Assembly (NCBI GenBank): GCA_024743195.1
Contig: JANSXE010000004.1
Coordinates: 1 to 64,000 of the forward strand
DNA from: Alphaproteobacteria bacterium
GTDB taxonomy: Bacteria; Pseudomonadota; Alphaproteobacteria; UBA8366; Aestuariispiraceae
Direction: 5' to 3'
DNA: 64,000 bases
Positions 7,217 to 63,557 of this stretch are shown here, one piece after another. Under the pieces are notes generated by a model. It saw only the letters and a list, made by a program, of their open reading frames with translations, was not told the origin of the DNA and did not search any database. The first letter of the stretch is position 1, and each line of letters starts with the position of its first letter. The position numbers and the translations under genes are program-made.

Positions 7217-9063
<1,847 letters not shown>

Positions 9064-9067
9064 CGGC

Positions 9068-10733
9068 ATGCAGCTCACGCTCTGGACATATGAGGGGCCG
9101 CCGCATGTCGGCGCCATGCGCGTCGCCACCGGCATGAAGAAGCTGCATTACGTGCTGCATGCGCCGCAAGGCGACACCTACGCCGACCTGCTCTTCACCA
9201 TGATCGAGCGGCGCGATCATCGCCCGCCCGTCACCTACACCACCTTCCAGGCGCGCGATCTCGGCTCCGACACGGCGGAAATCTTCAAGCACGCGCTCTC
9301 CGACGCCTATGAGCGCTTCCAGCCGGACGCCATGCTGGTCGGCGCCTCCTGCACGGCGGAGCTGATTCAGGACGATCCGGCGGGTTTGGCCAAGGCGCTC
9401 GCGCTGCCGGTTCCGGTGGTGCCGCTGGAGCTGCCCTCCTATCAGCGCAAGGAGAACTGGGGCGCCTCCGAGACCTTCTATCATCTGGTCCGCGCGCTGT
9501 GCGGCCCGCGGGCGCTGCAGCCCGGCGAAGAGCGTCCGGCCAGGGCCGAGGGCGCGCGGCCGAGCTGCAACCTGCTGGGCCCGACGGCGCTCGGCTTCCG
9601 TCACCGCGACGACGTGACGGAGGTGACCCGGCTGCTCGACGCGCTCGGCGTGGAGGTCAAGGTCGTCGCGCCGTTGGGCGCGACGCCGGCCGACGTCGCG
9701 CGGCTCGGCGAGGCGGACTTCAACGTCGTGCTCTATCCGGAGCTCGGCGAGACCGCGGCGAAGTGGCTCGAGCGCGCGTTCCGGCAACCCGTCGTGCGCA
9801 CGGTTCCGATCGGCGTCGGGGCCACGAAGCGCTTCGTCCAGGAGGTCGCGGAGATCGCCGGCGTCGATCCGGCGCCGCTGCTGGAGCGCGAGATCGCCCG
9901 GCTGCCTTGGTACTCCCGCTCGATCGATTCGACCTATCTGACCGGCAAGCGCGTCTTCGTGTTCGGGGACGCCACGCACGCGATCGCTGCGGCCGAGGTG
10001 GCGGCCGACGAATTCGGCTTCGAGGTGGTCGGCCTCGGGACCTACAGCCGCGAGCAGGCCCGCGAGGTGCGCGCCGCCGCCAAGCGCTACGGCGTCGAGG
10101 CGCTGATCAGCGACGATTATCTGGAGGTCGAGGACCGGATCGCGGAACTGCATCCGGAGCTGGTTCTGGGCACTCAGATGGAGCGCCACATCGCCAAGCG
10201 TTTCGGGGTCCCCTGCGCCGTCATCTCCGCGCCGGTGCATGTGCACGATTATCCCGCCCGCTATTCCCCGCAGATGGGATTCGAGGGCGCGAACGTCCTG
10301 TTCGACACCTGGGTCCACCCCCTGATGATGGGGCTGGAGGAGCATCTCTTGGGGATGTTCCGCGAGGATTTCGAGTTCAACGACCACACGCCCTCGCATC
10401 TCGGCCACAAGCCGGATCAGTCGGCGCCGCGCCCGGACGAAGAGCCGGCGCCCGCGAATTCGGTCGCAGACGACGGGCCGCCCGCCGCCGCCGAAGCCGG
10501 CGTCGCGACGCTGGAGCGGCCGCAGACCGACGCGGCCGCCGCCGCCCCCGAGATCGCCCCCGAGATCGCCGCCGAAGCGGCGCCCGAGGCGCCGGCCGGC
10601 GCGCCCGTCTGGGCTGTCGAGGCCGAGAAGGAGCTGAAGAAGATCCCCTTCTTCGTGCGGGGCAAGGCGCGCCGCAACACCGAGCGCTTCGCGACGGAGC
10701 GCGGACTGACGACCATCACGCTGGATACGCTCT

Positions 10734-59452: not shown

Positions 59453-60805
59453 TCACCCGCCCAGCAGGCGCGCGTCGAAGGGGTAGCGCGTCAAATTCTC
59501 GAAGCCCGTCTCGGTGACGACGCCCTGATCCTCCAGCTTCACGCCGCAGGGACCGCCGACTTCGCCGAAATAGACCTCGACGCACAGGCACATGCCGGGC
59601 TCCAGCACGCCGTCATAGCCGGCCGCATCCCAATCCTCCGGATAGCGCAGCGCGGGGTATTCGTCGCACAGACCCACCCCGTGATACATCACGCCGTAGC
59701 GTTGGGCGCGATAGCGTTCCGGCAGCTTCTGGCCCTGCTCCACAAGCTCCCGGAAGCTGCGGCCGGGGCCGAGCAGCGCCATATTCTCCTGGATATGATC
59801 GAAGGCCGCCTTGTAGAGGTCCTTCTCGTAATCCGTCGGCGCGCTTTCGCCGAGCTTCCAGGTGCGCGACAGATCGGCGCAATAGCCGTAGGGGCCGACC
59901 AGATCGGTGTCGAAGGCCAGGATGTCGCCCTCGCGCATCACGCGGGGGCCGCATTCCTGGAACCAGGGATTGGTGCGCGGACCGGAGGAGAGGATGCGGG
60001 TCTCGATCCATTCCCCGCCGCGGATGTGGTTGCCGCGCTGCAGGGCGGCCCAGGCGTCGACTTCCGTCAGGCCCGGCTGGGCGGCCGCCTCCATCTCCGC
60101 CATGGCGGCCTCGCAGGAGGCGATGGCGCAGCGCATGGCGTCCAGTTCGGTCGCGTCCTTGATCTTGCGGGCGTGCTCGGTGACCGCCTGGCCTTCGTGG
60201 ATCTCGAAGCCTTGCGCCTCCAGCGCGCGCAGGCCGGCGATCTCGATCTTGTCGACGGCCAGGCGCCGGGCGTCGCGCCCGCAGCGGGCGCGCACGATCT
60301 CGGCCACGTCGGCGGCGAAGCGGGCGGCGTGTTCGGGGCCGCGCTCAGCGCTTTCGAAATAGAAGAAGCTGGCGCCGTGGCGCACCTCCTTCACCAGCGG
60401 CAGATGGGCGGAGAGATGTTCGCCCGCATGGAAGTCCCACAGGACCATGTGGCCGTCCGCCGTGACCAGACAGGCCCGGCAGGGATTGTGCGTCACCCAG
60501 AGCTGCATGTTGGTGCTGTCGGTCGCGTAGCGGATGTTCAGGGGATCGAACATCAGGACGGCGTCGACGTCGCGCCGCCCCAACTCGCCGACCAGACGAC
60601 CGAGGCGGTAGGCGCGCAGCCGCTCGAGATTGGGCGGGGTCAGGCCGCGCGCCGCCCATTCCTCGAAGGCCAGATCGGTCGGGCCGATCTCGACCCGGTC
60701 GGCGTCGTTCGGGCTGCCGTCCGGCAGGGTGTCGCCGTTGGCGATGCGCCGCCGATAGGGATCGATCTTGCGCGCCGCGCCCAGCACCAGGGGATCCGCC
60801 CGCAT
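59453..60805 (-). CDS. dddP: DMSP lyase DddP
   Basis: DddP cleaves dimethylsulfoniopropionate to dimethyl sulfide and acrylate. It has an M24 (creatinase/aminopeptidase P) fold but is not a peptidase. The 450-residue protein reads like marine DddP throughout: VEIGPTDLAFEEWAARGL, MFDPLNIRYATDSTNMQLW, GGEWIETRILSSGPRTNPWF. The metal ligands Asp299, Asp301, Asp311, His375, Glu410 and Glu425 and the catalytic Asp381 match the residues reported for the Ruegeria enzyme at a constant offset of four, as far as I recall them. Start: ATG 60805 with GGGAGG seven bases upstream. No acrylate or DMSP-uptake genes are adjacent. Confidence 0.9.
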   Translation of the reverse strand: MRADPLVLGAARKIDPYRRRIANGDTLPDGSPNDADRVEIGPTDLAFEEWAARGLTPPNLERLRAYRLGRLVGELGRRDVDAVLMFDPLNIRYATDSTNMQLWVTHNPCRACLVTADGHMVLWDFHAGEHLSAHLPLVKEVRHGASFFYFESAERGPEHAARFAADVAEIVRARCGRDARRLAVDKIEIAGLRALEAQGFEIHEGQAVTEHARKIKDATELDAMRCAIASCEAAMAEMEAAAQPGLTEVDAWAALQRGNHIRGGEWIETRILSSGPRTNPWFQECGPRVMREGDILAFDTDLVGPYGYCADLSRTWKLGESAPTDYEKDLYKAAFDHIQENMALLGPGRSFRELVEQGQKLPERYRAQRYGVMYHGVGLCDEYPALRYPEDWDAAGYDGVLEPGMCLCVEVYFGEVGGPCGVKLEDQGVVTETGFENLTRYPFDARLLGG

Positions 60806-60945: not shown

Positions 60946-62400
60946 TCAGCGCGCCTCGATGCGCCGCACGAACTCGGCGAGGATCGCCCGCCAGAGCGCG
61001 TCCTTCAGAACCTTGTCCTCGACGCCGGCGTCGAGGCTCGGATTGTCGTTGACCTCCACCACCATCGGCCCGCGCGCGGTCTGTTTCACATCGACGCCGT
61101 AGAGGCCGTTTCCGATCGGCCGGGCGGCAAGCAGCGCCGCGTCGACGATGTCGGCCGGCGCGTCCTCGATCGGCACGGTTTCGAACAGCCCCTCGTCATG
61201 GCCGCCGTCGGCCTCGTGCTTGACGATCTGCCAGTGGCCGGCCGCCATGAAATACTTCGAGGCGTAGAGCGGCGCGCCGTTCAGAATGCCGATGCGCCAG
61301 TCGTACTCGGTCTCGACATACTCCTGGGCCAAGATCAGATCGGATTCCTTCAGCATCGCGCGGCCGATGTCTTCCAACTCGTCCGGCGTGCGCGCCTTCT
61401 TCACCCCGCGCGAGAAGCTGGAGTCGGGGATCTTCAGAACCAGCGGGAAACCGATCTCCGCCGCGGCGCGCGACAGCGTCGCCCGGTCCAGCACCAGCGT
61501 CCTAGGCGCCGGAACCCCGTTGGTGCGAAACAGTTCCGCCAGATAGACCTTGTTGCAGCAGCGCAGGATCGACGTTGCGTCGTCGATGCAGGGCATGCCT
61601 TCGGCTTCGGCGCGCTTGGCGAAGCGATAGGTGTGGTGGTCGAGATTTGTGGTCTCGCGGATGAAGAGGGCGTCATATTCCGCCAGCCGCGGCAGGTCCT
61701 TGCGCGTGATCAGCTCCACCTTCACGCTGAGCGCTTGGCCGGCCTTGGCGAGCCGCTCCAGCGCGCGCTTGTTGGAGGGCGGCATCGCTTCCTTCGGGTC
61801 GTGCAGCACCGCCAGCGCGTAGCGCGGCGGGCTCGCGAGTTGCGGCGTGGGCCGGGCGCGGCGCGTGTAGCGGTCGAGCGCGCGGGCGAACAAGGCGCGC
61901 CCGGTCTCGTCGAGTTTCTTCAGTTTGGGCGCGTCGACGTCGAGGACGCGCCCGCCTGCCTCCGTCGTGAAGCGCACGGAGAGGATCGGGCAGCGGAAGG
62001 CGTCGAACGCCGCGCGGGCCAGCGCGGCGAGCGACGGGTCGTCGCACGCCCCGAAGCAGATCAGCAGCGGGCTCGCCGGCGGCTCGCCTTTGGCGCGCTT
62101 GAGCGCCTTGCGCAAGGCGGCGTCGAGATCGCCGAGCGCGCGCGCGTAGATTCGCTTCCAGCCGACCCAGAGCATCGCGTCGGCGGAGGGCAGCATGCGC
62201 TCGCCCCGCGCCTCGGCCATCAGGGAGCAATAGTAGCCGAGCCCTAGATACTGCGCGTCCGCGCACAGATTGATCAGCCGCGCCCGCTTGGGCAGCCGCT
62301 TGGTGCGGGCGATGTAGTCGCGCGCCGAGAGCACGCGCCGGCCCGGCCCCGGAAAGTCGAAGCGGGCGGGATCGTCGACGATGATGATATGGTCGGCCAT
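60946..62400 (-). CDS. RimK-like ATP-grasp ligase with RLAN N-terminal domain
   Basis: A 484-residue protein. The N-terminal RimK-like ATPgrasp N-terminal (RLAN) region has VLSARDYIARTKRLPKRARL and LINLCADAQYLGLGYYCSLM. The C-terminal ATP-grasp domain has FIRETTNLDHHTYRFAKRAE, GFPLVLKIPDSSFSRGVKKA and MVVEVNDNPSLDAGVED with metal ligands. Such ligases join amino acids to a peptide or small acid. The target is unknown. It starts 2 bp after the stop of the GNAT-peptidase C39 gene, a pairing I have seen in other proteobacteria, which implies a joint pathway. Confidence 0.86.
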   Translation of the reverse strand: MADHIIIVDDPARFDFPGPGRRVLSARDYIARTKRLPKRARLINLCADAQYLGLGYYCSLMAEARGERMLPSADAMLWVGWKRIYARALGDLDAALRKALKRAKGEPPASPLLICFGACDDPSLAALARAAFDAFRCPILSVRFTTEAGGRVLDVDAPKLKKLDETGRALFARALDRYTRRARPTPQLASPPRYALAVLHDPKEAMPPSNKRALERLAKAGQALSVKVELITRKDLPRLAEYDALFIRETTNLDHHTYRFAKRAEAEGMPCIDDATSILRCCNKVYLAELFRTNGVPAPRTLVLDRATLSRAAAEIGFPLVLKIPDSSFSRGVKKARTPDELEDIGRAMLKESDLILAQEYVETEYDWRIGILNGAPLYASKYFMAAGHWQIVKHEADGGHDEGLFETVPIEDAPADIVDAALLAARPIGNGLYGVDVKQTARGPMVVEVNDNPSLDAGVEDKVLKDALWRAILAEFVRRIEAR

Positions 62401-62402
62401 GG

Positions 62403-63557
62403 CTATGCTCCCTCGGCCGACTGCGTCGGGCGGCGCAGCAGCAGGGCGGCGCGCTGCTTGGCGCGGCCATAGCGGCTCATCCGTTCGAAGTCCGCGCGCG
62501 GGATCGGCAGCAGCATGCGGTCGGTCTGGGTCTGCATCTCGTCAACGTCGACGAAAGGGTCGTGGACGAACACGAAACGCGCGTCCATGTCGGCGACCAC
62601 GACCCAATGCGGCGTGCGCTCTCGGTCGAGGGCGTAGGTGCTGATCAAGACGATGGGCGCGGCCCCCTCGGCCAGAGACCGCTCGATCTCGGCGAGCGTC
62701 AGCGCGGTCTCCCGGACCGGAATCCCGACCTCGGCGCATTGCGCCAGATAATCCTCCTGCACCAGGCGCACGACGTCCTTCTTGATCGGCGTGCGCACGC
62801 TGTGGACGAACATCACGTCCGGATCGCGAACATGCACGCTGACCGGAAAGCCGCGGGCGTGCGCCGCCAGCGCTAGACCGTAAGGGCTCGTCCCGCCGAC
62901 GCCGCGGGTCATGAAGATGGTCGTGCTTTCCCGCCAGAGGCGCAGCTCTTCCGTTCGGTCCGCGCGCGCCGAGCCGTCCAGCGCCCGCATCGCCATCATC
63001 AGGCAGGCGGGCCCGCAGGTGAAGCCGAGGGACTGTGCGATGTAGGGGAAGCGCGTCGGATCGATCGGCGGATGCGGACCCAGCCGCTTTTCCATCCGCA
63101 GCGCGTCGGCGGCGTCGTCGTAATAGGCCGGATAGGCGCCGAAGGGCCGATAGCCGGCCGCTTCGTAGAAGCGAATGGCGCGCGCGTTGTCGGTTCGCAC
63201 TTCCAGGCGCAACGCGATCACGCCTTCGGCTTCCGCGGCCGCTTCGGCGGCGGCCAAAAGGGCCCGCGCGACGCCGCGCCCGCGCGCCGCCGGCGCCACG
63301 GCGAAGGAATAGAGGCGCGCCAGCGAGGTTCCCCGATGCAACAACACCATCGCGTAGCCGTCGATCCCGCCGGCGGGGTTCTCCGCGACCAGGGTGATCT
63401 GGCGGCCGCGGCCCAGAAGATGACGGAAGTTGCGGCGGGTCAGCCGATCCCTATCGAAGGCGGCGTTTTCGACTGCGAGCAGGGCGTCGATGTCGGCGCG
63501 GTGCGCCGTGCGGATGTGCGTCGTCTCGATTGGATCGGCTGGCTTGGCGGCGCGCAT
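62403..63557 (-). CDS. GNAT acetyltransferase / peptidase C39-like fusion
   Basis: A 384-residue two-domain protein. Residues 10-158 are a GNAT acetyltransferase (HIRTAHRADIDALLAVENAA, acetyl-CoA loop ARGRGVARALL at about 91-101, NARAIRFYEAAGY). Residues 165-384 are a C39-like papain-fold domain with Cys181 in LGFTCGPACLMMAM and a histidine in TPHWVVVADMD. C39 peptidases process double-glycine peptides, but here there is no transporter part. The start at 63557 is at the family N-terminus. With the downstream RimK-like gene it forms a tight two-gene unit: ligase plus acetyltransferase/peptidase. Confidence 0.85.
   Translation of the reverse strand: MRAAKPADPIETTHIRTAHRADIDALLAVENAAFDRDRLTRRNFRHLLGRGRQITLVAENPAGGIDGYAMVLLHRGTSLARLYSFAVAPAARGRGVARALLAAAEAAAEAEGVIALRLEVRTDNARAIRFYEAAGYRPFGAYPAYYDDAADALRMEKRLGPHPPIDPTRFPYIAQSLGFTCGPACLMMAMRALDGSARADRTEELRLWRESTTIFMTRGVGGTSPYGLALAAHARGFPVSVHVRDPDVMFVHSVRTPIKKDVVRLVQEDYLAQCAEVGIPVRETALTLAEIERSLAEGAAPIVLISTYALDRERTPHWVVVADMDARFVFVHDPFVDVDEMQTQTDRMLLPIPRADFERMSRYGRAKQRAALLLRRPTQSAEGA

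Follow-up and report, generated by a model that had tools for sequence, protein, structure and literature searches.

The GNAT-DUF3335 and RLAN/ATP-grasp genes found together in the window (the whole 64,000-nucleotide stretch of DNA that was analysed) belong to a recurring enzyme pair that we read as a two-step peptide builder, in which the ligase and the acetyltransferase act on one peptidic substrate and most likely yield a small N-acetyl-peptide; we give this reading a probability of about 0.5. The constant pair is the ligase plus the GNAT, and the C39 peptidase domain carried by the window protein is an optional fusion. GNAT-DUF3335/RLAN pairs are a known but uncharacterised type, and the window locus is a typical example of it. 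Its features are as follows.

62403..63557, minus strand: GNAT-DUF3335 fusion gene, 384 aa, ATG at 63557
63078..63521, minus strand: RimI/Ard1-like N-acetyltransferase domain, residues 13-160 (PF00583, structure matches, E119 invariant)
62436..63050, minus strand: papain-like DUF3335/C39-like cysteine peptidase domain, residues 170-374 (PF11814, conserved residues)
60946..62400, minus strand: RLAN/RimK-like ATP-grasp ligase gene, 484 aa
61846..62400, minus strand: N-terminal RLAN domain, residues 1-185 (PF14401; the model resembles a shortened RimK/LysX/ArgX ATP-grasp protein)
60949..61818, minus strand: catalytic ATP-grasp half, residues 195-484 (residue conservation; closest solved relatives LysX and RimK)

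Both genes lie on the minus strand, with 2 bp between the end of the GNAT-DUF3335 gene and the start of the ligase gene. In the 384-aa protein, Pfam placed a GNAT domain at residues 44-136 (PF00583, 57.1 bits, 2.6e-15, cut-off 20.7) and a DUF3335 'Peptidase_C39 like' domain at residues 170-374 (PF11814, 271.4 bits, 5.4e-81, cut-off 25); in the 484-aa protein it placed RLAN at residues 26-173 (PF14401, 122.3 bits, 1.7e-35, cut-off 25) and a RimK ATP-grasp domain at residues 287-457 (PF08443, 33.6 bits, 3.9e-8, cut-off 21). Coordinates and Pfam matches thus bear out the layout described in an earlier note on this DNA, a GNAT-C39 fusion followed 2 bp later by an RLAN/RimK-like ligase. The C39 part is a member of PF11814 and not of PF03412, the bacteriocin-processing C39 family borne on ABC transporters, which scored 16.9 bits on the window protein, below its cut-off of 22. 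Pfam found no transporter domain in the GNAT-DUF3335 protein, which supports as probable the earlier suggestion that the substrate is cytoplasmic. The nearest NCBIfam family for the GNAT half was rimI (TIGR01575, 67.8 bits, below the cut-off of 86.4), and for the ligase the RimK-family/LysX models, well below their curated cut-offs (TIGR00768, 73.7 bits vs 143.4). The closest named relative that we found is Marivibrio halodurans, an alphaproteobacterium of the Rhodospirillales, with 72% identity in GNAT-C39. The next gene downstream, 140 bp past the ligase stop (59453-60805, minus strand), encodes the M24-family DMSP lyase DddP (NF043017, 604.1 bits vs a cut-off of 600); it fits a marine bacterium, and the relatives gave no sign that it is part of the pair.

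The AlphaFold2 model of the GNAT-C39 protein had a mean pLDDT of 91.6 and a pTM of 0.87. Its GNAT half matched Ard1 (4pv6, Z 23.3), E. coli RimI (5isv, Z 23.0) and RimI (2cnm, Z 22.8), the first two at 1.2-3.5 A over 146-152 residues. The whole-protein fold lists were filled by the GNAT half and a sequence search with the C39 domain by itself found no related solved structure, so the C39 fold assignment rests on Pfam and on conserved residues. Modelled alone (pLDDT 85.3), the RLAN domain aligned with whole LysX, ArgX and RimK proteins, spanning these from close to their first residue to close to their last (LysX/ArgX 5k2m: Z 11.7, 4.4 A, 167 aligned of 270, VIA-align), and all 50 of the matches listed were ATP-grasp-fold proteins. 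This near end-to-end match suggests that RLAN, as modelled, is a shortened ATP-grasp copy ahead of the active one. We do not claim an internal duplication, since a profile comparison of RLAN with the catalytic half was not significant (probability 0.4%) despite the clear structural match. RLAN may have a non-catalytic role, for example in substrate or carrier binding.

Alignments gave no indication that the pair has decayed. Residues Q175, C181 and H317 of the C39 domain were present in 45/45 GNAT-C39 sequences, with D or E at D333; E119 of the GNAT domain was invariant in the same number; and K284, K323, E449, N451 and N453 of the ATP-grasp half were found in 61/61 RLAN ligases. With catalytic assignments taken from known families, and with positions checked in the alignments, the catalytic residues are intact in all three enzyme domains of the window pair, so that, judged by sequence, nothing points to a dead enzyme at this locus.

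We surveyed two samples, one of 190 genomes at class level and one of 398 Pseudomonadota genomes at phylum level. The class sample held RLAN in 23 genomes and DUF3335 in 17, and wherever a full-length GNAT-DUF3335 fusion occurred (12 genomes) RLAN was adjacent (12/12). RLAN was patchy in the phylum sample, being found in 72/398 genomes (about 18%); DUF3335 was found in 58 and both in 57 (Fisher p=1e-53, on raw genome counts uncorrected for kinship). At 55 RLAN places a DUF3335 domain lay within 6 kb, in 29 cases as GNAT-C39 then ligase, in 18 divergent, in five as ligase then GNAT-C39 and in three convergent. The occurrence of all four orders argues against inherited synteny alone and, together with the many families involved, is a better argument for the pairing than the genome counts are. 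Co-directional pairs frequently overlap by 1-8 bp, suggesting that they are probably co-translated. A scan of named genomes returned 43 relatives of the GNAT-DUF3335 protein, some of them in records that bear the labels Acidobacteria, Verrucomicrobia, Gemmatimonadetes, Desulfobulbaceae and Mariprofundus. Two records, with the titles Klebsiella pneumoniae MAG (L084) and Mesoflavibacter MAG (L072), have layouts near-identical to those of uncultured gammaproteobacteria and Rhodospirillales, respectively, and are probably mislabelled.

The co-occurrence, the linkage in four orders and the frequent overlaps uphold the earlier proposal that the two genes form one system. Two observations that the earlier note had named as arguments against it were not made: 57 of the 58 DUF3335 genomes also carry RLAN, far beyond chance, and the catalytic residues are conserved in the alignments of 45 and 61 sequences. 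The idea of the C39 protease as a constant part of the system was not borne out, as many RLAN loci have a GNAT only. All 23 class-sample RLAN loci adjoin a GNAT, with or without C39; in 11/11 of that sample's RLAN genomes with no DUF3335 next to RLAN, the neighbour is a separate GNAT (about 145-275 aa) that matches the window protein in its GNAT half only. In the phylum sample, 17 of the 18 places examined without linked DUF3335 have a RimI-like GNAT within 1.5 kb (the exception is in genome G366; two further places are left out of this count). Four genomes (G194, G515, G243 and G321) contain both the fused and the stand-alone kind. In a tree of the GNAT domain, fused and unfused rows interleave, with 8 changes (7-9 in bootstraps), of which the strongly supported branches by themselves force only one. 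The stand-alone GNATs at C39-less loci and the interleaved tree indicate that ligase and GNAT form the primary unit, with C39 probably lost or gained on several occasions. At one locus (L050, G180:C9:175000-194900) a single long open frame (8728-10725) has two tandem DUF3335 matches. Other genomes, and Methanoregula records too, contain DUF3335 proteins that stand alone.

A third conserved partner had been suggested as something to look for. No constant one emerged: the first Pfam neighbour tally showed none, with MFS, TPR, CorA and others at background level. Two families did accompany the pair in subsets of lineages, neither of them beside the window pair. DUF155 (the RMND1 family), first spotted adjoining the pair in four loci, was present in 21/72 RLAN+ vs 1/120 RLAN- genomes (p=2e-9), the latter being hand-chosen, partly from families shared with the RLAN+ genomes, and some of them incomplete. 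Within a single family (f166) the figures were 13/14 vs 0/23 (p=4e-9). In 13 of the 21 genomes DUF155 lay within 6 kb of RLAN, and the proteins have a hydrophobic helix at the C-terminus, which we read as a membrane anchor; DUF155 is absent from the window genome. DUF2817, which we take to be an M14-like hydrolase, adjoins GNAT-C39 or RLAN in Methylophaga, Methylomonas, two Mariprofundaceae records and G194, in differing orientations. Its proteins show HxxE, DxH and LEFG motifs and a weak PDB match to the Francisella protein REP34; the DUF2817 genes of the window genome are on other contigs than the pair. A YcaD-like MFS transporter gene adjoins the pair in four alphaproteobacterial loci (L053:178-1350, L058:8035-9393, L062:6483-7763 and L075:8404-9786), with PRK03633 as its best NCBIfam match, below cut-off; it is possibly an exporter, or a coincidence. 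In a genome from the window's own family, a HipA-like kinase gene (L052:10719-12008) lies directly upstream of the pair.

In the reading that we prefer, the RimK-like ligase would spend ATP on an amide bond between an amino acid and the carboxyl terminus of a small acceptor, itself an amino acid or a peptide, and the RimI-like GNAT would acetylate an amino group of that molecule. The outcome would most likely be a short non-ribosomal N-acetyl-peptide, much as Ngg and AsnO make N-acetylglutaminylglutamine amide (NAGGN). Where present, the papain-like C39 domain may serve as an optional hydrolase for trimming or recycling this peptide, a job that DUF2817 could do in some lineages, and membrane-anchored DUF155 would be an accessory protein. 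We infer the order of the ligation and acetylation steps. It is quite probable that ligase and GNAT share one substrate; that this substrate is small and non-ribosomal has about an even chance. Ligation and acetyl capping of one substrate would explain why the ligase and the GNAT, and not C39, are constant, and solved relatives of the ligase (RimK and LysX/ArgX) add amino acids to acceptors. Our preference for a small N-acetyl-peptide, itself about evenly balanced, comes from analogy with the operon logic of NAGGN. Against such a builder, the GNAT half resembles the protein N-terminal acetyltransferases RimI, Ard1 and Naa10 above amino-acid ones, and RimK and LysX have protein substrates. In eukaryotes, the DUF155 protein RMND1 is linked to translation in mitochondria (PMC7564844), which points to ribosomes.

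These last observations lead to the main rival, which we consider possible but doubtful. The ligase would add amino acids at the C-terminal end of some cellular protein, possibly ribosomal, the GNAT would acetylate an N-terminus, and C39 or DUF2817 would remove the added residues, in a cycle like that of RimK and RimB on RpsF. DUF155 would recruit the enzymes to ribosomes or to the membrane. The rival is serious because of the RimK/RimB precedent of a ligase with a protease (PMC11957791), the RimI-like fold of the GNAT (nearest to RimI, Ard1 and Naa10, Z 21-23) and the link of DUF155 to translation, RMND1 being proposed to tether mitochondrial ribosomes (PMC7564844). The nearness of the ligase to LysX and RimK, the excess of DUF155 in RLAN+ genomes with its C-terminal hydrophobic helix, and the motifs and weak REP34 match of DUF2817 also agree with it. 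It fits poorly with the patchiness of RLAN even within family f166, where 14 sampled genomes have it and at least 23 do not, with the lack of DUF155 in most RLAN+ genomes, including the window's, and with the position of GNAT-C39 beside a NAGGN operon in G194. The more specific proposal that the pair and DUF155 form a membrane-located bacterial system that modifies ribosomes or nascent proteins is, in our view, rather unlikely; if it were true, bacterial DUF155 genetics could reveal the molecular job of RMND1.

We regard as improbable a graspetide-like RiPP pathway, in which the ATP-grasp enzyme cross-links or extends a precursor that is N-acetylated and freed of its leader by C39. A C39 protease combined with an ATP-grasp ligase is known in RiPPs (PMC8939145), but no conserved short frame lay within 1.5 kb of the pair when dozens of loci were compared. 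Those short frames that did appear near the pair were gene ends, DUF2817 antisense frames and tRNA shadows. This search near orthologues, proposed in the earlier note, agrees with its statement that no precursor peptide is visible. The window ligase is also closer by sequence to RimK/LysX than to graspetide ligases, C39 is frequently missing, and an ABC transporter is not beside the pair as a rule. It is highly improbable that GNAT and ligase have separate functions and adjoin each other merely through chance or co-regulation: GNAT genes are common (19 rimI-profile matches in the window genome), but the co-occurrence (p=1e-53), the four gene orders across many families, the GNAT partner at 17 of the 18 C39-less places examined and the coupled reading frames all speak against it.

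The builder that we prefer has a functional parallel in the known NAGGN operon, which consists of an acetyltransferase, a ligase and a peptidase (PMC8070244). The pair shares with it an acetyltransferase, an ATP-grasp ligase and a peptidase, and in G194 the fused GNAT-C39 gene lies next to such an operon: on a single strand, AsnO (TIGR03104, 939 bits), Ngg (TIGR03103, 944) and the M42 peptidase (TIGR03106, 614) are followed directly downstream by GNAT-C39, DUF2817 and DUF155 (L188, G194:C1:237000-255000), the RLAN gene of that genome with its own GNAT lying elsewhere. It differs in having separate GNAT and ligase genes, a RimK-like ligase and no amidotransferase. The ligase half of the NAGGN enzyme resembles cyanophycin synthetase and not RimK, so the likeness is functional only. 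At the window locus the Ngg fusion model TIGR03103 scored 19.9 bits on the GNAT half (cut-off 569), and AsnO was not found beside the pair, DddP being downstream and the first part of the upstream neighbour seen in translation. An asnO-like gene was not a consistent RLAN companion in relatives; the one asparagine-synthase neighbour identified (L064) was a weak match, and such neighbours were inconsistent. RLAN occurred in 10/37 Ngg+ genomes (398-genome sample, counted by hand), with no clear association. A NAGGN synthetase (Ngg) of the window genome itself lies on another contig (G000:C14:9552-11189, 677.9 bits), so a different product is to be expected from the pair. We conclude that the pair does not constitute the NAGGN pathway and, given a NAGGN neighbourhood seen in one genome, may handle related N-acetyl-peptides.

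With RimK/RimB, which run the polyglutamylation cycle of RpsF, and RimI, which acetylates S18, the pair shares a RimK-like ligase, a RimI-like acetyltransferase and a protease that might undo the ligation; it differs in its papain-like vs retropepsin protease, its extra RLAN domain and its scores under the RimI and RimK cut-offs. LysX/ArgX, the ligases of the amino-group carrier protein LysW, are among the nearest proteins of solved structure to the catalytic half and the best structural matches of RLAN, but the surroundings of the pair (within 1.5 kb) hold no conserved gene for a short carrier protein. RLAN and DUF3335 are already named in Pfam; Iyer et al. (2009) reportedly named RLAN and predicted peptide-ligase roles. 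In agreement with the earlier statement that the pair has no defined pathway, the literature searched yielded no product or target, nor RLAN and GNAT together. DUF3335 is described as often fused to GNAT (PMC10318531, citing Iyer et al. 2009). As far as can be checked, the DUF155 and DUF2817 partners, the optional nature of C39 and the RLAN fold are additions to prior knowledge, and the DUF155 link, which can be probed in ordinary laboratory bacteria, is a new lead for a family known otherwise through RMND1, a human disease gene. About 18% of the sampled Pseudomonadota genomes carry the pair, as do members of other phyla; it has a ligase and GNAT core that two gene families (DUF155 and DUF2817) track, and its function is now testable via these genomic partners. 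Its nearest known counterpart is the GNAT-DUF3335/RLAN-ATP-grasp pair itself, with which the window locus shares the same domains and the same fusion.
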